This document shows positions 1,746-38,910 of a stretch of DNA of 38,910 nt, piece after piece. The translations under genes were made by a program, and so were the position numbers. This DNA is from Prevotella sp. (GTDB lineage Bacteria; Bacteroidota; Bacteroidia; Bacteroidales; Bacteroidaceae). Location of the stretch: positions 1-38,910 of the forward strand of contig JAFWSS010000239.1 in the NCBI GenBank assembly GCA_017524385.1, written 5' to 3'. How positions within the stretch are numbered: the stretch's first letter is position 1; the number at the start of each line of letters is the position of its first letter. The notes beneath the pieces were generated by a model. It was not told the origin of the DNA. It did not search any database and saw only the letters and a program-made list of their open reading frames with translations.

Positions 1746-4339
1746 GTAGAAAGTTATTTCCGTATGCTACGGCGTTCTTTATCACTGCATTGACATCCAT
1801 TCCCTTATCATCGCAGAATAAGATTCTTGTCCACCACTCTAATGGTGAGGACGAGGTTTTCATAAATGTAGATAGCATCACCTATTCTCAATCAAGTGCC
1901 GGAAGAACTTTCCAAAGTGTACATGTTCAAAAGAAGAACTATGAAACGCCAATAGATGAAATTGAAAGCGTCGCATTCGGACACCTAATGCTTTGCCCCG
2001 ATAAGAACCATCCACATATCATCGACCTTGGTCTGCCTTCTGGAACGAGATGGGCCTGTTGCAACATGGGAGCCCAAACACCCGAGGACAACGGGGCTTT
2101 TTATGCTTGGGGGGAGGCTGAAGAGAAGTTGATCTACAACGATGAAACATATATATATGCTAAAAAATCTGGCGGTCATTATAATTATCAAAATCTCGGT
2201 TCTAATATCTGTGGCACAGAATACGATGTGGTTCACACGAATTGGGGCGATGATTGGCAGATTCCATCAATAGAGCAGACTATGGAACTGCTCCATAACT
2301 GCACTTCTCAATGGATTACTATCAATGGTGTGGAAGGCGAATTGTTCACAAGCAGATACAACCACAGCAGCATTTTCATGCCCGCAGCAGGATATCGGTA
2401 TGGTTCTACTCTCCTCGACATTGGTGGCTTCTACTGGACTGGGTCACGGCATCCCGACTTCGATACCTATCCATTCTATCTCTATTTCCATTCAGAAGAT
2501 GCTAACTGGGGAAGTTACGGACTTCGTTCTGTTGGACTTACCTTACGTCCAATTGTATCTGCAGGTCCTGCATGGACAGATCTCTCTTTGTCAAGAACAT
2601 CACCAATTAGAATTAGGGTAGGTACGGAATATACTATAGATATAAGATCTGGCAACGGTTCATATTCTGTGGAAAGTAGTAATCTGAATGTAGCCTCATC
2701 TGAAATCAAAAACAACACGATTGTTATTCATGCTCTAAAAGAAGGAAAATCCACAGTTAGTGTAACTGACAAGCAGAGCGGTCAAAAAGTGACAATTGTT
2801 GTCACGGTATTAAGCGGTTCGCTAACAAGTCACACTCATTGTCCTGATGACAACCACCCCCATCTGATTGACCTTGGTTTACCCTCAGGCACAAAGTGGG
2901 CCTGCTGTAACGTGGGTGCAATAAATCCAGAAGGACACGGCGGATATTATTCTTGGGGAGAAACAGAAGAGAAGTCCGTCTATAATGATTTAACATATCC
3001 ATACTCAACAGGTATAGACATGGATGAAGATGGGTGGTACGACAGTTATTGGATGTTCCAAGACCCCGGAACCAGTATATGCAACAGCGAATACGATGTG
3101 GCAAATTTGAAATGGGGATGTGACTGGCTCATGCCAACGATGGAACAACTTCAAGAACTTATTTGCAACTGCACCCACCGATGGACAACCGTCAATGGTG
3201 TGGAAGGGCTATTGTTTACCAGCAACTATAATGACGGTAGCATCTTCCTTCCTGCGGCTGGTTACAGAAAAGACTCTCGATTCATTGACCTTAATGGTTA
3301 CGGCTATTATTGGACAGGAACACAAGATTTCCATCAAGGCGACAAAGCTTACAGACTTCGCTTCCCTATAGATATAGATATTTGGGATAGTAATATAGAT
3401 TTCTATCATAATGGTAGTGTACAGTTAAGCGAAAGCCGCAGCTATGGACTCTCCGTCCGCCCCGTAGCGTATGAAACAGAAGTTTTACATACAGACAACC
3501 TAAAACCAGATGGTGTTCTTGATGAGAAATCAGGACTCAGGGTTCGGTCGGCCTTTTCATACGACTATGTGTATGGCGAGGATGGAAGATTACGGTCCAT
3601 GCTATATCCCGAAGGAGATCCCCGTCACTATGAATTTTATTATGCCCCCGATAAGATTATACGATATGAAGGAGACGAGAAATTCGAAACCTATTCGGTT
3701 GTATATAATGACATGGGCTTTATCACGTCCTATAGTGTTTCCGAAGTATATGAGGAGGAACAATGGACTCAGAAAGAGAACACAAGTCTATCCTATGATG
3801 TCGATGGGCATCTGATAAAAGTCACCCGAACCTGTAAGGATACTGTATATGATGAAGACACGGAAAGAATTGAGACGTACAACAGCACAACAGACTACAC
3901 GCTTGATTGGAAGGATAATCTGCTGATGGCTATTTCAATGATAGAAATAGGAACGGATGCAGGTGGACAGTATCATCGTGAGGAGAACTACAGATTTGAA
4001 AACACCAATGAGTCATTAGCCAACAACGCTAATAAGTACAAGCAGTTTTGTAACTCTGTAGTACTCTACGGTTTTTTGGAAAGATTGAGTTTTGTCGGTC
4101 TTCTTGGCTATGGACCTGATTACTTGCCGTCAAAGTGCAAGTATGAGGAGCGAGAGGATACGTATGATGAAGAAGGGGTGATGCACAGGCGCGAAGACTC
4201 AGGGACTGTGGACTACTCTTACTCTTTCAATGAGGATGGTTCAATAAATTATGCCGAGGTTAATAAATATGAGACACGCCATTATTATGCCTACGATTAC
4301 AAGCCAACTAATTTTAGCGGTAATCCTTCCGCAAAGTAG
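1742..4339 (+). CDS. large FISUMP/Big2 surface protein with DUF4595-like C-terminus
   Basis: 865 residues. Signal peptide ~1-25 (ending IPLSSQ); N-terminal 'DSITY...ESVAFG' module to ~80; FISUMP domain 1 at ~83-270 (IDLGLPSGTRWACCNMGA, FYAWGEAEEK, FMPAAGYR); Big2-like domain at ~278-356; FISUMP domain 2 at ~366-580 (IDLGLPSGTKWACCNVGA, YYSWGETEEK, FLPAAGYR); then ~285 residues rich in YxYDxxGRL-like beta-hairpins (YDYVYGEDGRLRSMLY, YDVDGHLIKVT) resembling DUF4595/RHS-like repeats. The second FISUMP domain is closer to the first than to unrelated family members, suggesting internal duplication. It is probably displayed on the cell surface. Translation is coupled to the preceding gene by a 4-nt overlap. 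The ligand is unknown. Confidence 0.75.
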   Translation: MSRKLFPYATAFFITALTSIPLSSQNKILVHHSNGEDEVFINVDSITYSQSSAGRTFQSVHVQKKNYETPIDEIESVAFGHLMLCPDKNHPHIIDLGLPSGTRWACCNMGAQTPEDNGAFYAWGEAEEKLIYNDETYIYAKKSGGHYNYQNLGSNICGTEYDVVHTNWGDDWQIPSIEQTMELLHNCTSQWITINGVEGELFTSRYNHSSIFMPAAGYRYGSTLLDIGGFYWTGSRHPDFDTYPFYLYFHSEDANWGSYGLRSVGLTLRPIVSAGPAWTDLSLSRTSPIRIRVGTEYTIDIRSGNGSYSVESSNLNVASSEIKNNTIVIHALKEGKSTVSVTDKQSGQKVTIVVTVLSGSLTSHTHCPDDNHPHLIDLGLPSGTKWACCNVGAINPEGHGGYYSWGETEEKSVYNDLTYPYSTGIDMDEDGWYDSYWMFQDPGTSICNSEYDVANLKWGCDWLMPTMEQLQELICNCTHRWTTVNGVEGLLFTSNYNDGSIFLPAAGYRKDSRFIDLNGYGYYWTGTQDFHQGDKAYRLRFPIDIDIWDSNIDFYHNGSVQLSESRSYGLSVRPVAYETEVLHTDNLKPDGVLDEKSGLRVRSAFSYDYVYGEDGRLRSMLYPEGDPRHYEFYYAPDKIIRYEGDEKFETYSVVYNDMGFITSYSVSEVYEEEQWTQKENTSLSYDVDGHLIKVTRTCKDTVYDEDTERIETYNSTTDYTLDWKDNLLMAISMIEIGTDAGGQYHREENYRFENTNESLANNANKYKQFCNSVVLYGFLERLSFVGLLGYGPDYLPSKCKYEEREDTYDEEGVMHRREDSGTVDYSYSFNEDGSINYAEVNKYETRHYYAYDYKPTNFSGNPSAK

Positions 4340-4381
4340 GCAAGAACGTATTGGTGAAATCACAATAAATACACAAACGAT

Positions 4382-4858
4382 ATTAAAAAGAAATTATTAT
4401 CATTAATCACACTGTTGCTGCTTCCAGTCATGATGATGGCAGAGGAAGTCACAATCAACGGCATCAAATACGATTTGAATAAAGAAGGCGATGGAACTGC
4501 AACAGTCATTGCCAGCGATTATTCAGGTGATGTAGTCATTCCTGAATCTTTCAATTACAACGGAAAAGAGTATTCCGTCACTGCAATAGGGGATGGTGCT
4601 TTCGTCGGGTGCAAATCGCTGAGCTCCATAGCTATCCCCAGCACTGTTTCCCGAATTGGAAAATACGCTTTTGAAGGATGTACAGGTTTAACTTCTGTTC
4701 ATATATCAGATTTAAAGGCATGGTGCAAAATAGATTTTAATGATCATCGATATTATCCATCATGTAATCCCCTTCAATATGCTCACCATCTCTATTTGAA
4801 TGGTGAGGAAATCAAGGACTTGGTTATTCCATCAGGCGTCACGGAAATCTACGGGTAA
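4382..4858 (+). pseudogene. BspA-like leucine-rich-repeat protein, truncated and without ATG
   Basis: From 4382 the frame reads (I/M)KKKLLSLITLLLLPVMMMA, an obvious signal peptide, but its first codon is ATT where ATG is expected. The nearest in-frame alternative starts (TTG 4415, ATG 4430) would cut into or remove the signal peptide. After it come a strand-rich head (VTINGIKYDL) and LRR_5/BspA-type repeats (AIGDGAFVGCKSLSSIAIP, IGKYAFEGCTGL, IKDLVIPSGVTEIYG). Intact BspA proteins carry many more repeats; here the frame stops at 4856-4858, where the sequence changes into the tail of an unrelated nuclease gene. The lost start codon and missing 3' end indicate a decayed gene. Rare ATT initiation cannot be excluded. 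Confidence 0.75.
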
Positions 4859-5102
4859 AGGATTCGCCGACTTGGTGCTTATCCCGCGCAAGAATGTCGA
4901 TAAGCCAGCATTGGTCATCGAATTGAAATACGACAAGGACGCAGTAGCTGCCATCGACCAAATCAAGCACCGTCGGTATCCCGAGAAGGTGGCTCAATAC
5001 ATTGACAACCTGATACTTGTCGGCATCAACTACGACAAGCAACAGAAAACCCACGAATGCCATATAGAGAAATACGAAGGAGACAAAGATCATGCTGTTT
5101 AA
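4854..5102 (+). pseudogene. C-terminal remnant of an AAA-ATPase/PD-(D/E)XK (PDDEXK_9, DUF1703-type) gene
   Basis: From GKGFADLVLIPRKN to the stop at 5100-5102, about 80 residues match the C-terminal nuclease domain of the AAA-ATPase-like/PDDEXK_9 family. The active-site pattern is visible: FADLVLIP supplies the Asp, and ALVIELKYDKD supplies the Glu-x-Lys. The ATPase part is missing; upstream sequence belongs to the BspA-like gene in a different frame. An ATG at 4800 is in frame but would translate LRR-coding DNA out of frame, so expression is unlikely. It is a different subfamily member from the intact minus-strand gene at 6788-8335, so it is not simply that gene's duplicated tail. Repeat copy 1 begins directly after its stop codon. 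Confidence 0.7.
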
Positions 5103-5302
5103 ACATCAGCTAGCGCAATTGCGCCAGAGTCCTATTACTCCCAATAGTCCGTAGAACTAATAATCTTTGGAACCTCCTTTCATCCGCATGGCCAGAATGC
5201 CTTTAGGTGTTCTCTCCTCCCCTCTTGAAAATTGTAAGATTTGATCAGATTTGCAAGATTTCTCGCCGAAAGGCGACTCCTTTGTGAATTCGTCGAATTC
5301 AC
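5103..5302. repeat. structured intergenic repeat R, copy 1 (core only)
   Basis: About 200 bp shared, with a few small indels, with 8571-8750 and in part with 10823-10933. Internal order: a palindrome (CTAGCGCAATTGCGCCAG, 5110-5127); an AGTCC motif repeated every 9 nt; a conserved stretch with CATCCGCATGGCCAGAATGC; TTGATCA flanked by GATT repeats; a small stem (TCGCC/GGCGA); and a perfect inverted repeat GTGAATTC-GTC-GAATTCAC (5284-5302). This copy has a ~19-nt insertion after GTAGAA and lacks the left arm seen in copies 2 and 3. No open frame spans it. It lies between the nuclease remnant and the amidase gene. Confidence 0.8.
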
Positions 5303-5372
5303 GATAAATTAATCATGAATTATTTTTGTCAAATTCAAGTTGTCTGGAACGATTTTGGGTTAATAAACAAGT

Positions 5373-6023
5373 ATGAATGGAAACCGAGTTATGAGAAGTA
5401 AGTTGTTGGTTGTCTTGGCCTTGGTCATTGTATGTGATTGTGTGATTGGCATGGCCTCTTCCTGCGCTCAGCGTCCGAAGACAACTAAAGTGAAACGGAC
5501 GGTAAAGCATTATAAGGAGGTGAGCCATCCCACACCGAACTACAACAAGGAGATAACAAACGATGTGAAGGGAGTGATCCTGCACCACACCGCTGAGCCG
5601 ACGATTGAACGTTCATTGGGCGTACTCACCTCGACAAAGAAAAAGGTCGGAACGCATGTCGTAATCGACACCGACGGCACACGTTATATCATGGCGGCAC
5701 CGACAGTTGTCACCTTCCATGCTGGTTTCTCTTATCTCGACGGGAGGGAGGCCTGCAATGAGTTCACCATTGGAATAGAGTTCCAGGGCAACACATTGGA
5801 GGCGCCTCTCACCCAAGACCAAATCGATAGCGCCATCGAGTACCTCCTGCCCCTCATCTCCAAATACAAGATTCCCGTCAAGAACATCGTGACGCACGAG
5901 ATGGTGCGCAATGCTTATAAGGAGCGTCATCCCAACAAACGCTGCAGCGGAAAGGTGGATATCACCCAGACCGAGTACAAGCGTTTCATGCGATGCCTGA
6001 GAAGCAGACTGAATGAGAAATGA
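5373..6023 (+). CDS. N-acetylmuramoyl-L-alanine amidase-type lipoprotein (Amidase_2)
   Basis: 216 residues of the Amidase_2/AmpD/PGRP fold, which cuts the amide bond between N-acetylmuramic acid and L-alanine in peptidoglycan. N-terminal hydrophobic segment with a lipobox-like A-S-S-C (Cys31) suggests a lipoprotein facing the periplasm. Conserved pieces: GVILHHTA (first zinc ligand His71), THVVIDTDGTRY, FHAGFS, FTIGIEFQGN, then VTHEMV (second His) and KRCSGKVD, whose Cys is the likely third ligand as in T7 lysozyme and PGRPs. Start is either 5373 or the in-frame ATG at 5391, which gives a cleaner MRSK n-region. No clear promoter box was found upstream. Whether it recycles or remodels the wall cannot be told. 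Confidence 0.85.
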   Translation: MNGNRVMRSKLLVVLALVIVCDCVIGMASSCAQRPKTTKVKRTVKHYKEVSHPTPNYNKEITNDVKGVILHHTAEPTIERSLGVLTSTKKKVGTHVVIDTDGTRYIMAAPTVVTFHAGFSYLDGREACNEFTIGIEFQGNTLEAPLTQDQIDSAIEYLLPLISKYKIPVKNIVTHEMVRNAYKERHPNKRCSGKVDITQTEYKRFMRCLRSRLNEK

Positions 6024-6033
6024 GGGTAACGCA

Positions 6034-6089
6034 GGGTACGCAAGCAGCCTGCTTGCGATTCCACCCGCGGGCTGGCAGCCCTCGTACCC
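6034..6089. repeat. 56-nt three-way-junction element, copy a
   Basis: Outer arms GGGTACG and CGTACCC (7 bp) enclose two hairpins: CGCAAGCA-gcc-TGCTTGCG and a second one around GGGCT-ggc-AGCCC. The first 26 nt are identical in copy b at 6164-6219, while the second hairpin differs but stays foldable. It lies 11 nt after the amidase stop. Compatible with a REP-like element or a structured 3' UTR; identity unknown. Confidence 0.7.
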
Positions 6090-6112
6090 AAAGCCGTCGC
6101 CTGCGGAGGCAG

Positions 6113-6140
6113 CCCAAATAGTCCTATAAGTCCGTAGAGG
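6113..6140. repeat. fragment related to repeat R
   Basis: AATAGTCCTATAAGTCCGTAG reproduces, with one 9-nt unit fewer, the AGTCC-periodic part of repeat R (compare 5128-5154, 8596-8622 and 10848-10874). It sits between the two 56-nt elements, so the two repeat families are interleaved here. Confidence 0.5.
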
Positions 6141-6163
6141 TTGTTCCCGAGGACTGAAACGTG

Positions 6164-6219
6164 GGGTACGCAAGCAGCCTGCTTGCGATCATAAACGCGG
6201 ACTGGCAGCCCGCGTACCC
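6164..6219. repeat. 56-nt three-way-junction element, copy b
   Basis: Same length and architecture as copy a: GGGTACG/CGTACCC outer stem, identical first hairpin, and a second hairpin CGCGG-A-CT-ggc-AG-C-CCGCG. The loop GGC is preserved although the stem has diverged, which suggests selection on, or recent spread of, a folded form. Confidence 0.7.
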
Positions 6220-6267
6220 AGCTGCGAAATGAATGGAATGGACACCGCATCATCGGAAGATATTGAA

Positions 6268-6275
6268 TATCTTTG
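6268..6275 (+). promoter_or_regulatory. -7 box TATCTTTG of the small lipoprotein gene
   Basis: Exact Bacteroidota -7 consensus TAnnTTTG, 33 nt before the ATG at 6309. It predicts a start near 6282 and a leader of about 27 nt. No good -33 TTTG is visible. Its position rules out the longer N-terminus that would begin at 6273. Confidence 0.6.
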
Positions 6276-6308
6276 CCTCAAATCAGAAACCACAAAAAAC
6301 AGATAATT

Positions 6309-6731
6309 ATGAGAAAGACAATATTCAGCCTTTTAGGCTTATTCCTCCTGACCTGCATGTTTACGGGTTGTGGTGGCGGTAGCAAGAGCTCCAGTTCCAG
6401 CAGTTCGGCTTACGACGAGGAAACTTACGAGGCTGAGGCATACGATGAGGAGGAAGTGAGTTCGGTGAATTTCCAGTCTGGTCAGCAAGTCTATACCTAT
6501 ATTTTGGGCAAGCGGTTCCGTCAGGGACAGTTCCGTCTGGAAATACGGCAAGAAGGTATTTACATGAACGGACAATGTGTGACTGGTGCACTCCGTGTCG
6601 ATGCTTTCGAGGGCCCTTACGCTCAGATTTCTGCTTCCTATCCTGCCGGCGGTCAGTTCACGGGTGTTCTGGATGCAGATGAAGGCACGCTGACAGACGA
6701 GAACTCCGGCGACGTATATACGCTGGAATGA
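6309..6731 (+). CDS. small lipoprotein, 140 aa, hypothetical
   Basis: Signal peptide MRKTIFSLLGLFLLTCMFTG followed by Cys, a good lipobox (FTGC), so the mature protein should be lipid-anchored. A Gly/Ser linker (GGGSKSSSSSSSA) and an acidic Glu/Tyr-rich stretch lead to a ~75-residue domain that looks all-beta (YILGKRFRQGQFRLEIRQ, then YMNGQCVTGALRV). The Gly-Gly after Cys and the acidic residues resemble a surface-export signal of Bacteroidales lipoproteins, but the match is loose. I do not recognise the domain. It is monocistronic: own -7 box upstream and a strong hairpin immediately after the stop. Confidence 0.7.
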   Translation: MRKTIFSLLGLFLLTCMFTGCGGGSKSSSSSSSAYDEETYEAEAYDEEEVSSVNFQSGQQVYTYILGKRFRQGQFRLEIRQEGIYMNGQCVTGALRVDAFEGPYAQISASYPAGGQFTGVLDADEGTLTDENSGDVYTLE

Positions 6732-6743
6732 GAAAATGAATAT

Positions 6744-6784
6744 AGACGGGCAAAACATTGATTCCACAAGTTTTGCCCGTCTTT
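6744..6784. terminator. bidirectional terminator between convergent genes
   Basis: A perfect 13-bp stem AGACGGGCAAAAC/GTTTTGCCCGTCT (6744-6756 and 6770-6782) with a 13-nt loop. It lies between the lipoprotein stop (6731) and the stop of the minus-strand ATPase gene (6788). The T tracts are short on both sides. Confidence 0.75.
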
Positions 6785-6787
6785 GGA

Positions 6788-8335
6788 TTATTTCTCCGCC
6801 ATCTTCCATTCGGTGATGCGGCGGTGTTGGCTTGAGAAGTTCACGCCGATTTTGAAGAGACGGCGCGAGTCGGTGGCGAAGGGTAGGGCATAACCCTTGT
6901 CTTCAATCTGAAGCAGGGCCTCGTCCGCGCTTCTGTCGAGTTTGAACTCGAAGATGTAGATGTAGTCAGAGGTCTTGACGATGAGATCCATACGACCGTC
7001 GCTGGTGGGACGCTCCACCTCTACATACAGACCAATCAGACGGAACACCACGAATATCACATTCTGGAAATAAAGTTCCGCCTCTCCGGCAATACGGTAG
7101 TCACTGTCGGCGAAGAAGACTTCAAGAAGCGCCATGAATTGTTCCACTTCACCTCGCCGTATCGTGGTCACCAATTTAGATATGTAAGAACCGCTCTTCA
7201 CTGTGCTCACATTGGAATACAAGGGTATGAGGAATCGGGTGAAGCCGTTCTCCACCTCACGGTTGGGAAAACCGAGACGGTAGAGCTGGAACTCCTTGTT
7301 GTAGCCCTTGATGGTGAGGTACCCGCTCTGGTAGATGACCGACACGGGGTTCTCCTGCATGTTGTCGATGCTGTTGATGGTATTGCTTGTAATTTCCTCG
7401 TCAACGAGGTCATTGAGGTTGAATTTGGATTGTTGGAGCAGTTCCGTCAAGAAAGTGGGGGTGCCAGTCTCGAACCAGTATTCGCCGAACACCTTGCTCG
7501 ACAATGTGCTGAGCAGGCTGAAAGGATTATAGATGCCTACTGAGTCCTGACGGAAGTGGTAGCCGTCGTAATAATCCTTGAGTTGGGCATAACACTCCTC
7601 CTTAGTGAGATTGTTGGCAAAGGCCAACTCCTCCACCTCTGAGTCGAGATTGTCGTGAATCTCTTTATCTGTGATGCCGCAAATCTCCACATAACGCGGG
7701 TCCATCGAGATGTCGGTGAAGTTGTTCAAGTCGCTGAAGATGCTCACCTTGCTGAAACGAGTCACACCCGTGATGAAGCCAAGCTTAATGTACTTGTCCT
7801 GTGTCTTCATCACTGAGTAAAAGGCCTTCATCTGGCTGCGGTAGTGTTCCTGCAGTTCGGGATTGCCGATGGAGTTAAGCAGGGGCTTGTCGTACTCGTC
7901 AATCAGGATGACTACTTTTTGCCCCGTCTTTTCATAAGCACGTTGGACGATTCCTGCGAATTTCAGTGAAGGATTGGTCTCGGTAGGCGAACTGCCGTAA
8001 AGCCTTTCCCATTCTGACAATTTGTTATATATAATATCATGAAAACCATCCTTATTCTTGTATTCGCCCGTATTCAGGTCGAGGTGTAAAACGGGATAGA
8101 CAGTCCAGTCCTGCTCCAACTGCCCTAATGCCAGTCCTTTGAACAATTCCTTTTTGCCGAGGAAATATGCCTCCATGGTGCTGATGAGCAGACTCTTGCC
8201 GAAACGGCGAGGTCGGCTGAGAAAAAAGTATCCTATGTCTTTAGCCAATTTATAAACCAACGCTGTCTTGTCGATGTACAGACATCCTTGCTGACGTATC
8301 TTCTCGAAATCCTGTATGCCAATAGGGTAAATCAT
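6788..8335 (-). CDS. AAA-ATPase-like / PD-(D/E)XK nuclease protein (DUF1703 type)
   Basis: 515 residues, full length for the family. The N-terminal AAA-ATPase-like domain (IGIQDFEKIRQQGCLYIDKT) has a P-loop of the family's unusual form, RPRRFGKS at 41-48, and Walker B VVILIDEYDKPLL with Asp147-Glu148. The C-terminal PDDEXK_9 domain shows GRMDLIV (Asp450) and YIFEFKLD (Glu463-x-Lys465), so both active sites look intact. The family is multicopy in Bacteroidales; its biological role is not established to my knowledge, with mobile-element or defence roles suggested. It is convergent with the lipoprotein gene. Its 5' side faces repeat copy 2. A TAACTTGC (complement of 8364-8371) is a weak -7 candidate. 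The remnant at 4854-5102 belongs to the same broad family. Confidence 0.9.
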   Translation of the reverse strand: MIYPIGIQDFEKIRQQGCLYIDKTALVYKLAKDIGYFFLSRPRRFGKSLLISTMEAYFLGKKELFKGLALGQLEQDWTVYPVLHLDLNTGEYKNKDGFHDIIYNKLSEWERLYGSSPTETNPSLKFAGIVQRAYEKTGQKVVILIDEYDKPLLNSIGNPELQEHYRSQMKAFYSVMKTQDKYIKLGFITGVTRFSKVSIFSDLNNFTDISMDPRYVEICGITDKEIHDNLDSEVEELAFANNLTKEECYAQLKDYYDGYHFRQDSVGIYNPFSLLSTLSSKVFGEYWFETGTPTFLTELLQQSKFNLNDLVDEEITSNTINSIDNMQENPVSVIYQSGYLTIKGYNKEFQLYRLGFPNREVENGFTRFLIPLYSNVSTVKSGSYISKLVTTIRRGEVEQFMALLEVFFADSDYRIAGEAELYFQNVIFVVFRLIGLYVEVERPTSDGRMDLIVKTSDYIYIFEFKLDRSADEALLQIEDKGYALPFATDSRRLFKIGVNFSSQHRRITEWKMAEK

Positions 8336-8433
8336 AATTGCTACATGATTTTGTTTTCTGGGTGCAAGTTACAACTTTTAAATCAATCCGACAACATGGA
8401 AACCACGTTTTTTGCCGCATAATGTTTTATAAC

Positions 8434-8750
8434 GTCACGCCCCTATGACTTTTTTGCATATAGCATTGAATAGAAATACGTAACAATCCTCCAAAACCAT
8501 CCCTTAATATGCATAAAAGCACCCGTTATGCATATATATTCTCATTTTAACATTTACTATGGAACATTTGACACCAGCTGGCGCAGTTACGCCAGAGTCC
8601 TATTAGTCCCAATAGTCCGTAGAACCTTTCATCCGCATGGCCAGAATGCCTTTAGGCGTTCTCTCCTCCCCTCTTGAAAATTGTAAGATTTGATCAGATT
8701 TGCAAGATTTCTCGCCGAAGGCGACTCCTTTGTGAATTCATCGAATTCAC
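8434..8750. repeat. structured intergenic repeat R, copy 2 (left arm plus core)
   Basis: The most complete copy. The left arm (8434-8570) matches 10686-10822 and contains an AT-rich hairpin ATATGCATAA-nine nt-TTATGCATAT. The core (8571-8750) matches copy 1: CTGGCG/CGCCAG stem (8578-8595), AGTCC units with 9-nt spacing, TCGCCGAAGGCGA (8712-8724) and GTGAATTCATCGAATTCAC (8732-8750). Four independent inverted repeats in 320 bp without a reading frame suggest a folded RNA or a cruciform-rich DNA element. Confidence 0.85.
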
Positions 8751-8786
8751 GTTAATTTTGAGCGTATCTATGGTTTTGTCGCATTG

Positions 8787-8818
8787 TTTGGTGGTTTGAG
8801 CGAAACGTTGTAACTTTG
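8787..8818 (+). promoter_or_regulatory. orphan consensus promoter (TTTG-N20-TAACTTTG)
   Basis: TTTG at 8787-8790 and TAACTTTG at 8811-8818 are separated by 20 nt, a full match to the Bacteroidota housekeeping promoter. The predicted transcript starts near 8825 and no gene follows for more than 300 nt. The ATPase gene at 9149 has its own -7 box. Confidence 0.6.
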
Positions 8819-9122
8819 TAATTGAATCATCATCAACAGGCCAACAAGGGAACATACATCAAAATAATTATTTTCGCAAAATGTTATTTTTATGTCCTAT
8901 GAACGACGTTTCTTGACTAATAAATAGAATAAAAATACTCATTTGTAAGCACAAAAGTAGTTCCTTAAATATAGTCTTATTGATTTCTTCACTTATGCAC
9001 ATTTCGGTAAAATATAACATTCAACTGAACATAAAATGACATACCGAAGTTGAGTTTCGTTAATAAAACAGCGGAATTTGAATATTTTATCAACTTTCCG
9101 CTTGTTTTCTCCCGAAAAACAT

Positions 9123-9130
9123 TATCTTTG
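9123..9130 (+). promoter_or_regulatory. -7 box TATCTTTG of the DUF234-type ATPase gene
   Basis: TATCTTTG matches TAnnTTTG, and a TTG lies 18 nt upstream (9102-9104). The expected transcript start near 9137 falls inside the longest open frame, so translation should begin at the ATG at 9149 and not at the upstream codon at 9050. Confidence 0.65.
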
Positions 9131-9148
9131 TGGCGTGAATCAAAAGTA

Positions 9149-10579
9149 ATGGATGCCATGCTAATAGGTCGAGAAAAAGAAAAACAGGTATTACAGAATG
9201 CTCTCTACGAAGAGTACTCGCAATTCGTTGTCGTATATGGAAGGCGGCGTGTCGGTAAGACTTTTCTAATCAGAGAAACCTTTGAAAACCGATTCGACTT
9301 CCAATTTACCGGCGCTGCAAATTTGACTGCAAGAAAGCAGTTGGTGCGTTTCCGTCGTGCGCTTAAAGAACATGGGCAGAAAGATACTCCGGAACTAACC
9401 AATTGGGGCGATGCTTTCAGTGAACTCAAACGATTTATTAAAAGTCTGCCTGAAGGCAAAAAGGTTGTTTTCCTTGACGAGCTTCCATGGATGGATGCAC
9501 CACGATCTGGTTTTTTATCAGAGTTGGAATCGTTTTGGAATGGATGGGCATCGGCACGAAAAGATATTGTTTTTGTGGTATGCGGAAGCAGCACTTCATG
9601 GATGGTCAATAAAATTATCAAGAATAAGGGCGGTTTGCACAATCGCTTGAACCATCGTATATCACTTACCCCTTTCCCTTTGGGATTATGCGAGAAGTTA
9701 GCTCAGTCAAGAGGGCTTGTTTTGAACCGCAAACAGATGCTTGAAGCCTATATGATATTTGGCGGTGTACCATATTATTGGAGTCTGTTGCAAAAAGGAA
9801 CTAGCATAACTGCTGAGATTGACAGATTGTTTTTTTCACCTAATGGAGAACTGCATGACGAATTTGAGATGTTATATGCTTCATTGTTCAGAAAACCTGA
9901 ACCATACATTCGCGTAATTGAGTTATTGGCCAAGAAAAAGATGGGTATGACTAGACAAGAGTTGTTGGTGGCAGGACAATTTGAAGACAATGGAGCATTC
10001 TCTGACATTCTGAAAGATTTGGAGTGGTGTGGCTTTATTAGAAGTTATACCATGATGGGGTATCGGACAAAATCGGACATCTTCCAGCTAATAGACCATT
10101 ACACATTATTCTATTACGAATACATAGACGGAGTACGTCAAGGCTCAAACTATTGGCGTTCAATGCTTGGAACCCCCAAATATAATACCTGGTGCGGCTT
10201 GGCATTTGAGCGCACTTGCCTATGGCATGTTGACCAAATCAAAAAGAAACTTGGTATCAGCGGAATACTGACAAATGAATATGCATGGCGCTGCTTGCCG
10301 GATGAAAGCATCGGTAGGCCAGGAGTTCAGATAGACCTACTTATAGACCGTAGCGATGGAATTATTGATGTATGCGAAATGAAATACTCGAAAGCCCCAT
10401 ACACCATCACTTCCGATTATGATGAAGAACTTGCCCGTAAACGAAATGTGTTCCAGTCTGTAACAGGCACCAAAAAAGCCATTCATTCCATCATGGTTAC
10501 CACCGACGGCCTAACTCGGAATGAATACTGGGGGGACATTCAGGCGGAAGTTAAATTGGACGATTTGTACGAACTATAA
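9149..10579 (+). CDS. AAA-type ATPase with DUF234 / PD-(D/E)XK C-terminus
   Basis: 476 residues. It belongs to the archaeal-type ATPase_2 plus DUF234 family and is a different family from the DUF1703-type gene at 6788. P-loop GRRRVGKTFLIRE (Lys37); Walker B KVVFLDELPWMDA; sensor-like VFVVCGSSTSWM; a winged-helix-like middle (MTRQELLVAGQFEDNGAFS). The C-terminal domain has an intact nuclease-like signature: GVQIDLLIDRSDGIIDVCEM followed by Lys. Start set by the -7 box at 9123-9130 and the family-typical N-terminus (LIGREKEKQVL). The gene is alone between copies 2 and 3 of repeat R in direct orientation. Function is unknown; defence, toxin-like and mobile-element roles are all speculation. Confidence 0.88.
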   Translation: MDAMLIGREKEKQVLQNALYEEYSQFVVVYGRRRVGKTFLIRETFENRFDFQFTGAANLTARKQLVRFRRALKEHGQKDTPELTNWGDAFSELKRFIKSLPEGKKVVFLDELPWMDAPRSGFLSELESFWNGWASARKDIVFVVCGSSTSWMVNKIIKNKGGLHNRLNHRISLTPFPLGLCEKLAQSRGLVLNRKQMLEAYMIFGGVPYYWSLLQKGTSITAEIDRLFFSPNGELHDEFEMLYASLFRKPEPYIRVIELLAKKKMGMTRQELLVAGQFEDNGAFSDILKDLEWCGFIRSYTMMGYRTKSDIFQLIDHYTLFYYEYIDGVRQGSNYWRSMLGTPKYNTWCGLAFERTCLWHVDQIKKKLGISGILTNEYAWRCLPDESIGRPGVQIDLLIDRSDGIIDVCEMKYSKAPYTITSDYDEELARKRNVFQSVTGTKKAIHSIMVTTDGLTRNEYWGDIQAEVKLDDLYEL

Positions 10580-10685
10580 AAAGTGATTAATTTGCTATGT
10601 TCGAGATTTTTAAGAAGATACAGATTGAAGGTCAAGGTGGTTACTTTGATTAGGTCAACTGTGCCTCTTTACCATGTTTCATTTT

Positions 10686-10933
10686 GTCACGCCCATAAAA
10701 CATTTTTGCATATAACTTTGCATAGAAATACATTGTAATCCTCCAAAACCGCTCCTTAATATGCATAACAGCACCCGCTATGCATATATATCCTCATTTT
10801 AACATTTACCATGAAACATTTGACACCAGCTGGCGCAGTTGCGCCAGAGTCCTATTAGTCCCAATAGTCCGTAGATCCTTTCATCCGCATGGCCAGAATG
10901 CCTTTAGGTGTTCTCTCCTTCCCTCCTCCCCTC
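10686..10933. repeat. structured intergenic repeat R, copy 3 (left arm plus part of core)
   Basis: Direct-orientation match to 8434-8673, including the ATATGCATA/TATGCATAT hairpin, the 8-bp palindrome CTGGCGCAGTTGCGCCAG (10830-10847), the 9-nt-spaced AGTCC units and the CATCCGCATGGCCAGAATGC stretch. It ends at CTCCCCTC and lacks the TTGATCA, TCGCC/GGCGA and GTGAATTC parts. A TAACTTTG box (10713-10720) is present here but not in copy 2. Confidence 0.85.
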
Positions 10934-33411: not shown

Positions 33412-34083
33412 ATGAATAAAATAACGTCTATAGAAATGATTAAGCAAACCACTACGACGAGGACGCGCTCTCTTATGCTGATGTTAGTCGCATTTATTCT
33501 TTTCCCAACCGCCATTGTGGCGCAGACACCCAATGAACAACAAGCACGTCGTTTTTTCGACCAGACCTACAACATGGTTTTCGGCAAACAGGGTTCCTCA
33601 CTGCACTATGATGTGAATCTTATAGGTGTTTTCAAGACCAGTGGCGACATTTGGTATAAGGACAATAAGAGCAAGTTTGTTGATGAGCGTTATAATGTGT
33701 GGAACGACGGCAAAACCTACTACAGAGTGGAGCGGAAGAAGAAGACCGTCACTCTCTACGATGCCAATTCTGAAAAAAAGGACAAATATGCCAACGATTT
33801 CAAGTTCTCACCCGAAGACTATACCTACCATATTGCCGACGACCCCAAGGGCTATCTGATTACTTTGAAGCTGAAGCCAGGATGCAAGGGAATGAAACTG
33901 GTCAAGATTTTGCTTGACAAGAAAACCCGTGCGCCCATCAACTTGCGCATCAAGGTGGCTTTCTTCTGGGCTCATGTCAACATCAGCAAGTTCAAGAGCG
34001 GAGACATCAGCGACGATATATTTGTTTTCCCGCTCAAGACCTACGCGGATTACGATTGTATCGACAAGAGAGGGGAAGGGTAG
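33412..34083 (+). CDS. LolA-like periplasmic protein
   Basis: 223 residues (215 if started at the ATG at 33436, which gives the more compact signal peptide MIKQTTTTRTRSLMLML). The signal peptide ends near AIVAQ. The mature part is a mixed-beta protein with GDIWYKDNKSKFVDERYNV, TYYRVERKKKTVTLYD and INLRIKVAFFWAHVNISKF, resembling the LolA-like fold of lipoprotein carriers in Bacteroidota. The similarity is by pattern, so a lipoprotein-carrier role is inferred. The gap to the radical SAM gene is only 8 nt. Confidence 0.65.
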   Translation: MNKITSIEMIKQTTTTRTRSLMLMLVAFILFPTAIVAQTPNEQQARRFFDQTYNMVFGKQGSSLHYDVNLIGVFKTSGDIWYKDNKSKFVDERYNVWNDGKTYYRVERKKKTVTLYDANSEKKDKYANDFKFSPEDYTYHIADDPKGYLITLKLKPGCKGMKLVKILLDKKTRAPINLRIKVAFFWAHVNISKFKSGDISDDIFVFPLKTYADYDCIDKRGEG

Positions 34084-34115: not shown

Positions 34116-34164
34116 AAGTGTCCATTTCCGAACATGAAGAGTGTCCGAAAATGGACACTTTTTT
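34116..34164 (+). terminator. possible terminator after the LolA-like gene (overlaps dyad sites)
   Basis: AAGTGTCCATTT (34116-34127) pairs perfectly with AAATGGACACTT (34149-34160), and Ts continue to 34164. The same bases form two GTGTCC dyads that fit activator sites, so either or both functions are possible. Confidence 0.5.
34118..34158 (+). promoter_or_regulatory. two dyad sites upstream of the sigma-54 promoter (candidate activator sites)
   Basis: Site 2 (34141-34158) is a perfect GTGTCC-N6-GGACAC dyad. Site 1 (34118-34135) is GTGTCC-N6-GAACAT, four of six bases matching in its right half. Their centres are 23 bp apart and about 76-99 bp upstream of the predicted start at ~34225, the normal place for NtrC-family enhancer sites. 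Confidence 0.55.
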
Positions 34165-34198
34165 ATTTGCCTATACTCATTATCAGCGAGTTATGAGT

Positions 34199-34215
34199 TT
34201 GGCACGGTTCTTGCC
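34199..34215 (+). promoter_or_regulatory. sigma-54 (-24/-12) promoter of the permease operon
   Basis: TTGGCACGGTTCTTGCC matches the sigma-54 consensus TGGCACG-N4-TTGC at every position. GG (34201-34202) and GC (34213-34214) are 12 bp apart as required. It predicts transcription from ~34225, about 72 nt before the first permease ATG. Confidence 0.75.
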
Positions 34216-34241
34216 AATGAAAAAGAAGGATTTTCGTTATT

Positions 34242-34261
34242 TCGTTATAACGTTATAACGA
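34242..34261 (+). promoter_or_regulatory. perfect 20-bp palindrome in the permease leader
   Basis: TCGTTATAACGTTATAACGA is its own reverse complement and lies 17-36 nt after the predicted sigma-54 start. The flanks repeat ACGAGAAAACGA twice (34259-34285). It could be an operator or a leader hairpin, or part of a simple-sequence tract. Confidence 0.45.
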
Positions 34262-34296
34262 GAAAACGAATAAACGAGAAAACGAAAAAAAAGAAT

Positions 34297-35646
34297 ATGA
34301 CAACCCATTTTCGACAAGCCCTCGCCTTGTTGCGCGAGGAACGACTATTCTCCGGCATCTACATCGCTGGCACGGCATTGGCCATAGCCTTTACGATGGT
34401 GATGGCCGTGGTGTATTACATCAAGCTTGCCCCCATCTACCCTGAGCCGAATCGCGCACGGACCGTCTATTTCGAAGGCATCCGAATCGAGGCCGAGAAC
34501 GGTGGAATGGGACAGACCGGTTTCAGTGCCAAAGCATACGAGGACTGGTTCAAGTCCAGCCCGAATATCGAGTACTGCTCGCCCACGCTGTTGGCGGCTG
34601 GAACGGGCAAGACAATAGGCCGTTGCCACACCAGTGTGGTGCGTGGCAAGGATGACTACTTGGATGTGGTCCGCAACGAGGTCAGTACCGATTTCTTCCG
34701 CATCTATGAATACGAATTCTTGAGCGGACATCCCTTTACCCAAAAGGAAGTGGAGGGGAAAGAAGCCGTCTGCGTCATCAGCGATGCTTTGGCCGAACGG
34801 CTGTACGGCAAAGGCGTGGATGCCTTGGGAAAGACAGTGGAGATGGAGAGTGACCTCAATCTGAGGGTGGTAGGCGTGGTACGCGGTGGCAGTCAACTGA
34901 CCCCCGACAGTTATGCCGACATCATCATGCCATACTCTATGTTGGATGTGAAATTCGGTAGCGACTATCAAGGTGTCTATTCCATTGTGGCCACCGTGCG
35001 CGATGACGAGCACCTGCAGGCCTTGAAGCAGGAACTGGACGACGTGGCTACACGCTGCTGGCAGTCTCATCGCGATCAACTGCCCCAATTCGGTTTCGGT
35101 GAGGGCGTGAAGATGAAACTGGTGCTGACCAGGAATTTGGAAACCCATCCCATGCACGTGCTGCAAACTGAGAACCGCGACGGCATGTTTGGCAGACTGA
35201 CGAACTGGCAACTCATCAAGCATTATGCCGGCATCTTGTTCGTCCTGCTCTTTGTGCCTGCCCTCAACCTTTGCGGCATCGTGGGAGGACGCATGGAACG
35301 GCGGTCGGCGGAGATGGCCGTTCGCAAGACCTTCGGCGCACGGCGCAGCACGCTCCTGAACCAGGTGGTGGGAGAGAACCTTGTGCTGACATCTATCGGC
35401 GGTGTCATCGGTCTTTTGCTGTCCTGGCTCGCCATTTACGGGTTGCGCACGCAAATTCTCGGCATGTTCTTCGACAACAGCAACCTGTCCACGGCTCCGA
35501 TTGTAGAAGGTGAGATGCTCTTCGCCCCGACGCTGTTTGTCGGTGCCTTTTTCGCTATCCTGCTGCTCAACCTCCTGGCAGCCGTTGTACCAGCCTGGTG
35601 GAGCCTGAGAAAACCTATTGTGGAATCAATGATGGAAAAGAGATGA
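34297..35646 (+). CDS. ABC transporter permease, FtsX/MacB type (A)
   Basis: 449 residues. One N-terminal membrane segment (IYIAGTALAIAFTMVMAVVY), a periplasmic MacB-like core domain (~50-300), then three C-terminal segments. The FtsX signature is FGARRSTLLNQVVGENLVL, after MAVRKT; the end SLRKPIVESMMEKR is typical. Start at 34297: the longer frame would begin inside the dyad/terminator region, upstream of the promoter. The next gene overlaps the stop by 4 nt (ATGA). No ATPase lies in this window. The role is probably MacB-like export or mechanotransmission at the inner membrane; substrate unknown. Confidence 0.9.
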   Translation: MTTHFRQALALLREERLFSGIYIAGTALAIAFTMVMAVVYYIKLAPIYPEPNRARTVYFEGIRIEAENGGMGQTGFSAKAYEDWFKSSPNIEYCSPTLLAAGTGKTIGRCHTSVVRGKDDYLDVVRNEVSTDFFRIYEYEFLSGHPFTQKEVEGKEAVCVISDALAERLYGKGVDALGKTVEMESDLNLRVVGVVRGGSQLTPDSYADIIMPYSMLDVKFGSDYQGVYSIVATVRDDEHLQALKQELDDVATRCWQSHRDQLPQFGFGEGVKMKLVLTRNLETHPMHVLQTENRDGMFGRLTNWQLIKHYAGILFVLLFVPALNLCGIVGGRMERRSAEMAVRKTFGARRSTLLNQVVGENLVLTSIGGVIGLLLSWLAIYGLRTQILGMFFDNSNLSTAPIVEGEMLFAPTLFVGAFFAILLLNLLAAVVPAWWSLRKPIVESMMEKR

Positions 35647-36950
35647 AAACAAGACTGCACAATATCCTGAATGCCAATACTTGGCTGTTTATCGAATTGG
35701 TCATCATCACCGTCGTGGCATGGGCGGTATTCGACCCCGCTATCGTCAACCTGTATTACCGTAGCCTGCCTCTCGGCTACGACAGCGAACAACTGCTCTA
35801 TGCTCAAACAGTGGGAGGCGGTGAATGGACTGTTGACGAAAACGGTACACCGCAAGACCCTTATCGCATGACAGAGGCGCGCCGCCTCCAGATGTTACGA
35901 CAACTCACATCCGTGGAGGGGGTGTCCTCGGCATATTTTTACAACAATTCATACGGTGACATCGGATACACGAATGGGTCCTACACGGAATGTTGGAATG
36001 GTAGCGATACACTCTATTTGGCTACTGTCAACTTCGTTTCTGATTGCCATTTCTTCGAGACTTACGGTTTGCGTTCCCTTCCTGGCAGTCCGTCGGTAGA
36101 GGAACTCTCCCAAATCAAACAGCAAGACAGTCAGGTCGTGCTGACTCGTTCTGGTGCTATCGCGTTGTTCGGCACAACCGATGTGGTGGGCCGTCAGCTC
36201 ACGATCTGCTATAACCCGCCTTTCGTGGTGAGGGTGGCAGGTGTTGTGGAGGATTTCCGCAAAATGATGCCCAACAACCTGCGTTCGCTTATCTTCGTTG
36301 CCCAAGAAAATATCCAAACAGATTGTCAATGCGTCATCCGTCTGAAAAATGGCATCGACGCGCAGCGGTTCGTGGAGGAACATGGACAGGAACTGATTCG
36401 CAACGGAAAGACGGATTTCAACCGCATCAGTCGTCTCATGACCTACGATGACTGGTTGCGCCAACTGGAACTCGACGACGGACGCACGCAAGAAGTGAAC
36501 CGCAGTCTGGCACTGGCTTTCTTCTTCCTCGTCAACCTGATGCTGGCCGTCATCGGCACGGTATGGCTTCATGCCAAGCGGCGCACGGAAGAATGCGGTG
36601 TGCGACGTGCTTTCGGAGCCACTCGCTGGCGTATGCTTGGCGATTTCCTATGGCGGAATGCCCTGTTGGCCACCATTGCTGTAGTCATCGGCTGCATCAT
36701 CTACTTGAACTATGTCTACAGCGGCATCACCGAGTACAATGGAAACATGTACAGTGAAGCGCTCTACAATACGGGGGTGATGGTGGATTTGGCTACCGAT
36801 AGGTCCTGGCCCGACCTTTTCTGGTCTCATTTCCTTGTGGTCAGCGTCATCGTCTATCTTGTTCTTCTGTTCACCGTCCTCATCGGCACCGCCATTCCCG
36901 CTGTGAAGATTATCAGGACCAAGATTACCAATGCACTGAGGGACGAGTGA
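35643..36950 (+). CDS. ABC transporter permease, FtsX/MacB type (B)
   Basis: 435 residues. Membrane segment at ~16-34 (IELVIITVVAWAVFDPAIV), a large periplasmic domain, and the C-terminal FtsX block RTEECGVRRAFGATRWRML plus two further segments. It differs from A: it has a short basic head (MKTRLHNILNANTW) and a FDPAIVNLYYRSLPLGYD linker, shared with the fourth gene. The start ATG overlaps the stop of gene A. The upstream codons in this frame (35598-35642) lie inside gene A and are not used. Confidence 0.9.
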   Translation: MKTRLHNILNANTWLFIELVIITVVAWAVFDPAIVNLYYRSLPLGYDSEQLLYAQTVGGGEWTVDENGTPQDPYRMTEARRLQMLRQLTSVEGVSSAYFYNNSYGDIGYTNGSYTECWNGSDTLYLATVNFVSDCHFFETYGLRSLPGSPSVEELSQIKQQDSQVVLTRSGAIALFGTTDVVGRQLTICYNPPFVVRVAGVVEDFRKMMPNNLRSLIFVAQENIQTDCQCVIRLKNGIDAQRFVEEHGQELIRNGKTDFNRISRLMTYDDWLRQLELDDGRTQEVNRSLALAFFFLVNLMLAVIGTVWLHAKRRTEECGVRRAFGATRWRMLGDFLWRNALLATIAVVIGCIIYLNYVYSGITEYNGNMYSEALYNTGVMVDLATDRSWPDLFWSHFLVVSVIVYLVLLFTVLIGTAIPAVKIIRTKITNALRDE

Positions 36951-36991: not shown

Positions 36992-38272
36992 ATGAAAATG
37001 ATACGACAAGTACTCGCCCTGATGCGCGAGGAGAAACTCTACTCAGCCATGTACATCGCAGGCACTGCATTAGCCATTGCCTTCACGATGCTCATTGCCG
37101 AGGTGTATTACGTGAAGGTGGCCGACATTGCGCCAGAGGTGCGGCGCAGCACGACGTACTATCTGTATGGATACGGTATGAAAAATGAACCTTCACGTTT
37201 AGGGAACATTGTACACGATGACTTCCGTGACCTGTTCCAAAAGATGAAGACGCCAGAGTGCATAACAGCCGTCACGAATTTCTGGGACTATAACTTGTTC
37301 TCCATGAAACTCGCCGACGGCCTGCACGACCGTAACGTAAAGGTGAAGATGACCGAGCCGGGATTCTTCCACTTCTATCAGTACCGTTTCATCGAGGGAG
37401 CGCCTTTCACGCAGGATGACTTCGACAACGGGCGGCAGCAGGTGGTCGTGACCGAGGAAATTGCAAAACTGGTAGCCAAAGGCAATGCTGTCGGCTCTAC
37501 CATCAACATCAATAATTTCGACTTCCGCATCTGCGGCGTGGTCGAGACGCCAAGCGAGCTGACGGAACGTTGCGTGGCCGACGTGTGGTGGCCGTACACC
37601 GCCAAGGGATGGTTAGACTACCAAAACGAAAACTACCACGAAATACCAGTAATGGTCTATTTCAGCGTGCCAGCCGACCGTCGCGATGCCTTCAGGCAAG
37701 AGCTGAAGGAGGTGGAGGTGCGCTATAACTCCCTGCATAAAGACAATCCTGTTGACATGTTCGCGCAGCTCTACACGCACTATGCCTGGATAGGCAGGGA
37801 ACTCAACGACCTGTTCAATGGCTGGGACAGCAACCCGCTTTGGTACATCGTGCCCTCCGTCCTGTTTCTGCTGTTTGTGCCTGCAGTAAACCTGAGCGGC
37901 ATGGTGGCCAGCCGTATGGAGCACCGTCTGCCCGAAATGGCTGTGCGCAAGGCGTTTGGTGCCAAGCGGCGCACACTGCTGTGGCAGGTCGTCGTGGAGA
38001 ACCTTTTGCTGACGCTCATCGGTGGCATCGTGGGGCTTTGCATTGCATGGATGGCACTTTACGCGTGGCGTGATTGGGTGTTCGTCATCTTCGCCTACGG
38101 AGCCACGACATATAACGCTGTGCCTATCCTTAAAGGCGAAATGTTCTTTGGCCCCGCCATCTTCGCCATCGCCCTGCTCGTCTGCTGCGTGCTTAACGTC
38201 TTGGCGGCGACGCTTCCCGCATGGCTCAGCCTCAGAAAACCAATCGTGGAATCAATGATGTTACGCAAATGA
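36992..38272 (+). CDS. ABC transporter permease, FtsX/MacB type (A')
   Basis: 426 residues, paralog of gene A: the N-terminus VLALMREEKLYSAMYIAGTA parallels ALALLREERLFSGIYIAGTA, and the FtsX block (MAVRKAFGAKRRTLLWQVV) and the end SLRKPIVESMM are shared. The periplasmic domain has diverged strongly. It begins 41 nt after gene B and its stop overlaps the ATG of the next gene by 4 nt, exactly like the A-B junction. Confidence 0.9.
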   Translation: MKMIRQVLALMREEKLYSAMYIAGTALAIAFTMLIAEVYYVKVADIAPEVRRSTTYYLYGYGMKNEPSRLGNIVHDDFRDLFQKMKTPECITAVTNFWDYNLFSMKLADGLHDRNVKVKMTEPGFFHFYQYRFIEGAPFTQDDFDNGRQQVVVTEEIAKLVAKGNAVGSTININNFDFRICGVVETPSELTERCVADVWWPYTAKGWLDYQNENYHEIPVMVYFSVPADRRDAFRQELKEVEVRYNSLHKDNPVDMFAQLYTHYAWIGRELNDLFNGWDSNPLWYIVPSVLFLLFVPAVNLSGMVASRMEHRLPEMAVRKAFGAKRRTLLWQVVVENLLLTLIGGIVGLCIAWMALYAWRDWVFVIFAYGATTYNAVPILKGEMFFGPAIFAIALLVCCVLNVLAATLPAWLSLRKPIVESMMLRK

Positions 38273-38910
38273 AACAATTGAAAGACATATTCCGCCGGAA
38301 ATCGTCCATCTGGCTTGCCATCGAACTCGTGCTCGTCACCTTTGCTTGCTGGTGGGCATTTGACCCTGTCATTGTCGCAACCTACGTCGCCGGAATGCCG
38401 ATGGGCTACGATGCCGACCGCATCGTGAAGTTCGAAGTGGCCAGTTCCAGTAATCTTAAAGAACAGAAATGGGAAGATATTGTCGACGAGGAGAGTGTCT
38501 TGCTTCAGAAGGTGCAGGATATGGACGGTGTGGAGATGGCCTACGCGGCGAGTTCAACACCCATAGGATTCGGCACCGCGTCGATGCCCAAGTACTTCTA
38601 CCATGACGGCGACTCCGTTCAATGCTTTTGTTTTGGCTATAACAAGGACTCGCGGATGTTCGAGGTCTATGGCATTCAGTCGCTGACACCCGGTGTGCCG
38701 ACAAGTGAACTGTCACACGACTGCGAAGAGTACAATACCATCATCCTGACGCGCTCTGTGGCGATGAAGCTCTTCGGCACCATCGACGTGGCTGGACGGA
38801 AGTTGCTTGCAAGCCAACTGAACTTTGACGGCGACGAGCCGGAATGGGTAAAAGACAAATACTACTCCATCCGCGCCGTTGTAGAGGATGTGCGCTCTTT
38901 CGGGTACGAC
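38269..38910 (+). CDS. ABC transporter permease, FtsX/MacB type (B'), 5' part
   Basis: 214 codons without a stop, running off the window end. It begins MKQLKDIFRRKSSIWLAIEL, then VLVTFACWWAFDPVIV and MPMGYDADRIV, paralogous to the head of gene B (SLPLGYD). The rest is the N-terminal half of the periplasmic MacB-like domain (ILTRSVAMKLFGTIDVAGRK, YYSIRAVVEDVRSF); the C-terminal membrane block lies outside the window. Overlaps the previous stop by 4 nt. Confidence 0.85.
   Translation, partial: MKQLKDIFRRKSSIWLAIELVLVTFACWWAFDPVIVATYVAGMPMGYDADRIVKFEVASSSNLKEQKWEDIVDEESVLLQKVQDMDGVEMAYAASSTPIGFGTASMPKYFYHDGDSVQCFCFGYNKDSRMFEVYGIQSLTPGVPTSELSHDCEEYNTIILTRSVAMKLFGTIDVAGRKLLASQLNFDGDEPEWVKDKYYSIRAVVEDVRSFGYD

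Follow-up and report, generated by a model that had tools for sequence, protein, structure and literature searches.

A putative sigma-54 promoter, two upstream candidate sites for an NtrC-family regulator and an IHF-like, possibly DNA-bending site lying between them and the promoter very probably form the switch of an efflux operon at the end of the stretch of DNA analysed here (the window, 38,910 nt from a gut bacterium of the Bacteroidota, filed under Prevotella sp.). The same parts recur, in the same arrangement, before predicted efflux operons of this family. The features of the region are:

33412 to 34083, plus strand: LolA-like gene (below the Pfam cut-off), upstream of the operon, co-directional with it and outside it
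34116 to 34166, plus strand: hairpin formed by both dyads plus a T-rich tract, a possible terminator or insulator behind the upstream gene, a secondary function at most
34118 to 34135, plus strand: candidate activator site 1 (dyad 1), GTGTCCATTTCCGAACAT, 10/12 match, centred at about -99 from the inferred start
34141 to 34158, plus strand: candidate activator site 2 (dyad 2), perfect GTGTCC-N6-GGACAC, centred at about -76
34181 to 34193, plus strand: IHF-like sequence TATCAGCGAGTTA, of the form WATCAR-N4-TTR, downstream of the dyads and upstream of the box
34199 to 34214, plus strand: sigma-54 -24/-12 promoter TTGGCACGGTTCTTGC, whose distance to the dyads is kept in relatives
34231 to 34290, plus strand: AT-rich leader with inverted repeats and 16-bp tandem repeats, not conserved in relatives
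34297 to 35646, plus strand: permease w1 (MacB_PCD and FtsX, Pfam), first gene of the operon
35643 to 36950, plus strand: permease w2 (FtsX, Pfam)
36992 to 38272, plus strand: permease w3 (MacB_PCD and FtsX, Pfam)
38269 to 38910, plus strand: permease w4, truncated by the contig end, a fragment without Pfam match that is 92-94% identical to the gene after w3 in genomes G290, G312 and G073

Putative promoter, activator sites and bending site in the window

The sequence-only reading of this DNA had claimed a full match to the -24/-12 consensus, and indeed TTGGCACGGTTCTTGC is exact at 34199-34214, with TGGCAC-N5-TTGC at 34200-34214 and GG and GC ten apart, as is characteristic of sigma-54 (RpoN) promoters. 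Counted from the -12 GC at 34213-34214, transcription would start near 34226, giving a leader of 71 nt up to the ATG at 34297. The rpoN gene, for which a check had been proposed, was found in the own genome (G000) and in 15/15 further genomes (G440 and 14 others), i.e. in 16/16 of the group in total. Taken alone the box is weak evidence, since about one such site is expected per window by chance when one mismatch is allowed (mean 0.97, 100 shuffles). The exact form TGGCACN5TTGC occurs 23 times in G000 (12 times for the reversed pattern), and 13 of these 23 boxes fall within long ORFs. Another sigma-54 box of this genome (locus L037, G000:C268:6613) is preceded by two different dyads, TTGACA-N3-TGTCAA and GTGACA-N3-TGTCAC, 21 bp apart, a candidate site of a different activator. 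The operon leader at 34231-34290 also carries palindromic repeats, and the copy of the region in G460 diverges just past the promoter.

Two GTGTCC dyads 23 bp apart had likewise been described upstream of the box. The start-to-start distance of 23 bp holds, and the second dyad, GTGTCCGAAAATGGACAC at 34141-34158, is a perfect GTGTCC-N6-GGACAC; the first, GTGTCCATTTCCGAACAT at 34118-34135, turned out to be imperfect (10/12). With up to one mismatch such a dyad is expected 0.09 times on average, and 8 of 100 shuffled sequences hold one. A search of G000 found the exact dyad twice, in the window and at C60:16513, each time preceding a MacB-type operon. The C60:16513 copy has a second site 23 bp upstream (10/12), an equal distance of 59 bp to its box TTGGTATGGAAATTGT and the same TTATCA, and precedes genes for an ATPase, two MacB/FtsX permeases and a TolC-type protein.

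In IHF-assisted sigma-54 promoters an IHF site of the consensus WATCAANNNNTTR lies between enhancer and promoter. At 34181-34193 we found the IHF-like sequence TATCAGCGAGTTA, which the sequence-only reading had not reported and which has G instead of the last A of this consensus. We also considered TTATCA as a general sigma-54 feature and rejected it, as it is absent from this place in 22 other exact boxes of G000.

Recurrence of the module before efflux operons

Neither the box nor the dyads are decisive alone; it is the comparison between genomes that decides, and by this measure the whole element lies far beyond chance. A promoter-inclusive pattern (TGTCC-N6-GGACA, TTATCA, TTGGYA and TTGC at fixed spacing taken from three examples, up to three mismatches) occurs at 37 places in 29 of 398 genomes of the same genus, and the reversed control gave none; an earlier, strict pattern was too narrow and occurred in only 2 of 150 genomes including the own one. 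At 28 of 31 loci (window and C60 copy included) the first downstream gene encodes a homologue of this system's permeases or ATPase, the exceptions being G096 and two loci close to a contig end (G373 and G114). Tandem dyads sought without the promoter, with two mismatches, were found at 21 places in 19 of 399 family genomes, representing 8 of 30 genera, and in 2 genomes with the reversed pattern. Within about 96 positions, 14 of 19 of these loci read carry a sigma-54 box on one strand at either +69/70 (seven genomes of group g3) or +81/82, the 14 including the window and its identical copy in G440. The two distance classes differ by about one helical turn. One further locus (G413:C116) is cut inside the box by the contig end and four have no box.

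A scan of named genomes with eight aligned first permeases yielded 79 loci, mostly from rumen Prevotella and Bacteroidaceae MAGs, with Phocaeicola and Bacteroides represented too; because these records overlap the genus-genome set, they do not form an independent count. The module scores at least 22/31 in 51 of the 79, and the maximum among 79 reversed loci is 20. Thus the motif pair, the presence of which in orthologous loci the sequence-only reading had made decisive, does recur there. It is found at 48 of 53 loci with at least 50% identity (L182 and L198 are too near the contig edge; L188, L192 and L229 are without it) and at 3 of 26 loci with 41% identity or less. Bacteroides caecigallinarum (L232) carries a form of the promoter with a single dyad.

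We further compiled 93 distinct elements (dyad 2 at least 9/10, dyad 1 at least 7/10; 21-24 bp from site to site; 45-47 or 56-59 bp from site 2 to box). The site-to-site distance is 23 bp in 57 elements, 22 bp in 32, and 24 and 21 bp in 2 each, a narrow distribution that is partly built in because only certain spacings were permitted. Downstream of the elements lies a gene for a permease (63), a TolC-type protein (13), an ATPase (6) or an HlyD protein (5), another gene (2) or none before the contig end (4). Hence 87 of the 93 lead into an efflux-system gene, which starts within 300 bp in 83 cases and at 1.3-1.6 kb in four.

Of 47 elements with spacing 57, 41 have dyad 1 at the same offset as in the window. 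In 41 aligned elements the dyads and the -24 box are nearly constant with 1.8-1.9 bits per column (means of 1.85 bits for the half-sites of dyad 1 and 1.81 bits for dyad 2), followed by the IHF-like site (1.5 bits), the -12 region (1.3), the spacers (1.1-1.3), the leader (mean 0.52) and the flank (0.38). Two paired upstream dyadic sites of conserved position are typical of NtrC-family enhancers, and the predicted sites conform to this. WATCAR-N4-TTR stands at a fixed place in 69/86 long-spacer elements (in the strict WATCAA form in 31/86); the short-form elements have no IHF-like sequence at the corresponding place.

Candidate regulator and alternative explanations

The window is the whole contig C255 of G000 (5.05 Mb, 272 contigs). 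As it stops at 38910, before reaching any activator gene, and as contig G440:C16 stops in the same permease array, the genes past w4 were taken from G413, G588 and other relatives. It had been predicted that an NtrC-family regulator is encoded beyond the window together with an ATPase, a membrane-fusion protein and a histidine kinase, and this arrangement is what we find in relatives. In G588 a single contig holds the element, w1, w2, ATPase, MacBa, MacBb, TolC-type, HlyD, regulator and kinase genes. G413 has an unbroken run of w1-w4, ATPase, MacBa, MacBb, TolC-type, HlyD, NtrC-type regulator and kinase genes, its permeases being 96% (first), 98% (second), 64% (third) and 51% (fourth) identical to those of the window; the contig of this run begins past the promoter, and a different G413 contig ends in the element. 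ATPase, adaptor, regulator and kinase genes also follow the permeases in G440:C47, G080, G250 and G367. In each of the last three, a single contig carries element and regulator on the same strand, separated by TlpA-like genes and, in G080, by HipA-like genes too. In G504 and G624 the regulator-kinase pair is immediately upstream of the element. The order in g3 is element, TolC-type, regulator, kinase in the three genomes read, and in the other four the coordinates place element and regulator about 2 kb apart. Element and regulator thus share a contig in G588, G080, G250, G367, G504, G624 and seven g3 genomes. With the permeases of the window and the ATPase, HlyD and TolC genes of G413, G588 and G440:C47 the MacAB-TolC-type set is complete.

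The linked regulator consists of a receiver, a sigma-54 AAA+ domain with the motif GESGTGKE and a Fis-type HTH (Pfam); the kinase is of the PAS/HATPase type. A G(A/S)FTDA loop is present in 14/14 full-length regulators aligned, two of which are identical copies from G440. The accessible text of PMC4641369 has GAFTDA among the loop variants that would keep activation and does not list GSFTDA. The recognition helix is almost constant in the closer members. Sister regulators with another recognition helix (G129, G079) are accompanied by tandem GTGCG/CGCAC dyads before a TolC-type gene (L060 11391 and L061 about 3430-3455), a possible specificity code. In the G080 regulator (L053 9803-11287) both inter-domain linkers contain nearly the same peptide, PLTPS-KGEGEAC ... 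WRGVGGEA, which looks like an interspersed repeat inserted twice in frame.

Across the 398 genus genomes, 13 contain element and regulator, 16 the element only, 8 the regulator only and 361 neither (Fisher p ~1e-11, relatedness between genomes ignored). The regulator was counted at ≥70% identity, with three candidates per genome scored at E 1e-60, and some assignments are fragments (G373, 116 residues). At this threshold it was not found in 16 of the 29 element-bearing genomes, and the element was not detected in 8 of 21 regulator-bearing ones. Sorted by completeness, a close regulator is present in 7/7 element-bearing genomes that are at least 95% complete, in 1/8 at 90-94% and in 5/14 of lower completeness. 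At family level a regulator of at least 63% identity occurs in 17 of the 19 tandem-dyad genomes (18 rescanned, G000 taken from an earlier scan). Four of the 19 have no promoter linked at the distances searched, and three of these four are among the 17, so that presence of the regulator does not discriminate at this level; one of the three, G760, holds elements at another spacing. An element of the form sought is missing from G024 (L056) and Phocaeicola plebeius (L235), which do possess the operon, the regulator and the kinase, and in G124 (L057) site 1 and box are accompanied by a weak, hardly recognisable site 2.

Since no close receiver-type regulator was detected in 16 of the genomes that bear the element, there is some room for a different activator, e.g. 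a PspF-like EBP on C207, acting on the dyads of a promoter that would still be sigma-54 dependent. Sigma-54 activators are common, with an EBP match in 145/150 genomes; yet the element is confined to 29/398, and the receiver-type regulator is encoded in or beside the operon in many genomes, co-occurs with the element and is present in all of the most complete element-bearing genomes. We therefore regard another activator as improbable.

The contig itself probably stems from another genus. The whole of contig G440:C16 (23,879 bp; genus g17) matches the window at 99.95-99.99%, and G460 (g17) is 94.8% identical over a 5.2-kb stretch. In tetranucleotide composition, three of four g17 loci correlate with the window at 0.93-0.94 and the remaining one, a short locus, at 0.88; eight g1 loci give values of 0.85-0.91. 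No intact counterpart of window 1742-9742 turned up in G440. We consider misbinning the most likely explanation and recent transfer the alternative; G000 is then probably not the true source, and the filing assembly (contamination 6.56%) is probably mixed. Given the likely misbinning, the C144 regulator is probably not what drives this promoter. The own regulators of G440 are 87% and 79% identical to that of G080. A direct repeat of 252 bp (window 8422-8673 and 10674-10925, 89% identical) has parts in several G440 contigs, and no other G000 contig is among the matches listed.

Leaving aside which protein binds them, the dyads might merely be the intrinsic terminator of the LolA-like gene, the sigma-54 box being coincidental. 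We weighed this because a hairpin and a T run sit directly behind that co-directional gene, which stops at 34083. The dyads fold together into a single extended hairpin of -21.1 kcal/mol (z -5.9, equalled by 0/200 shuffles) followed by T6, which the sequence-only reading had not mentioned, so that the stable hairpin and T run typical of an intrinsic terminator are found behind a gene in the window; a simple scan for terminators gave a terminator-like site on the minus strand alone. Five or six of the 6 centre pairs are kept in 73/93 elements and at least 6 T in 10 in 75/93, and a strong hairpin also occurs, without T run, in g3 (L144, -33.6 kcal/mol, z -5.85). However, 12/93 elements have at most 3/6 centre pairs and 15/93 at most 4 T in 10, and as these features are not kept in all relatives, termination is not the conserved function. 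Among the 90 elements with a readable upstream gene, 31 have the nearest one pointing away, and these are about as rich in T: the mean for long forms is 6.4 vs 6.5 and 7.0, and no clear dependence on gene direction was seen. Moreover, dyads and box persist in g3 without the T run and in G096, where site 2 is reversed and none of the centre positions pairs, and tandem dyads found blind to the promoter carry the box at the two narrow distance classes in 14 of 19 loci. Since the box distance is maintained where hairpin centre or T tract is lost, we reject termination as the main function and consider a terminator alone very unlikely. A second element of G250 (L106 13286), inside the operon before a TolC-type gene, pairs at 3/6 centre positions and has 2 T in 10, which fits a location where termination would be harmful.

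Hardly credible, finally, is that the module was kept by recent copying as a mobile or recombining repeat and not through regulation: several copies per genome, contigs ending inside permease arrays, near-identical stretches common to genomes and, in the close set of 41, spacers about as conserved as the -12 region would fit this, but flank and leader vary around near-constant dyads and -24 box, and the architecture recurs with diverged sequence in g3 and Parabacteroides distasonis.

Proposed mechanism and relation to known systems

With these alternatives set aside, the interpretation of the sequence-only reading, a regulated sigma-54 promoter in front of a permease operon, is largely borne out, its function being predicted from sequence. 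In the switch that we propose, the kinase would sense envelope stress or a transported compound and phosphorylate the regulator. Regulator dimers would bind both TGTCC-N6-GGACA sites on the same face of the DNA (22-23 bp, about two turns) and then assemble, an IHF/HU-type protein would bend the DNA, and the AAA+ domain would open the sigma-54 polymerase complex for transcription of the operon. Where the operon carries the regulator and kinase genes it would activate itself, and such autoregulation is probable for regulator-bearing operons. Further copies of the module may bring extra permease cassettes, and sometimes a TolC gene, under the same switch.

NtrC/sigma-54 promoters with an IHF site are known from the glnA, nif and psp type. 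The present system resembles them in its -24/-12 box, its paired upstream dyads, a possible bending site between dyads and box, and a probable activator of the receiver-AAA+-Fis HTH type with a histidine kinase. It differs in its dyad, in the G(A/S)FTDA loop in place of GAFTGA, in its targets (MacB/FtsX-type efflux operons) and in the position of the regulator gene inside or beside the target operon. Compared with MacAB-TolC tripartite efflux, MacB_PCD and FtsX permeases, an HlyD adaptor, a TolC-family channel and an ABC ATPase are shared, whereas several permease genes (six in G413 and G312) accompany one separate ATPase gene. A locus of Parabacteroides distasonis (NZ_OY725812.1) with the g3-like order TolC, sigma-54 regulator, ATP-binding protein encodes a regulator 56% identical and has TGTTC-type dyads and TTATCA 19 bp before a TTGGCAT-N5-TTGC box. 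It differs in belonging to the Tannerellaceae, in its half-site (TGTTC/GAACA) and in its dyads, which are closer together, the first being degenerate.

The link between sigma-54 and these permeases is already in print as a prediction. According to its accessible text, PMC12316311 (2025) predicts that COG0577/FtsX-like permeases of Bacteroidia are under sigma-54 control and styles this as first evidence. It shares with our analysis a sigma-54 promoter before the same permease class in the same class of bacteria; it works at the level of COG enrichment, and in the text accessible neither an activator nor its site nor an operon is named for this class, and the term IHF does not occur. In our literature search, which covered mostly papers outside subscription, we did not find the binding site, activator, IHF-like site or autoregulation of this system, nor any experiment on it. 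Little was found in print on sigma-54 regulons of Bacteroidota, despite the presence of rpoN in every genome tested.

Promoter, two activator sites, probable activator and kinase, and target genes are now tied together. Activator sites that double as a terminator hairpin would, if confirmed, be a compact design. Tentatively, the system may represent a widespread regulon of the Bacteroidota, in which one self-activating two-component sigma-54 switch would govern an expandable set of permease cassettes with a common ATPase and a common TolC, the paired sites mostly doubling as a terminator that would shield the promoter from upstream transcription. Because promoter, sites, probable activator and kinase, and targets are linked, the regulon should be predictable by pattern and testable in culturable species.
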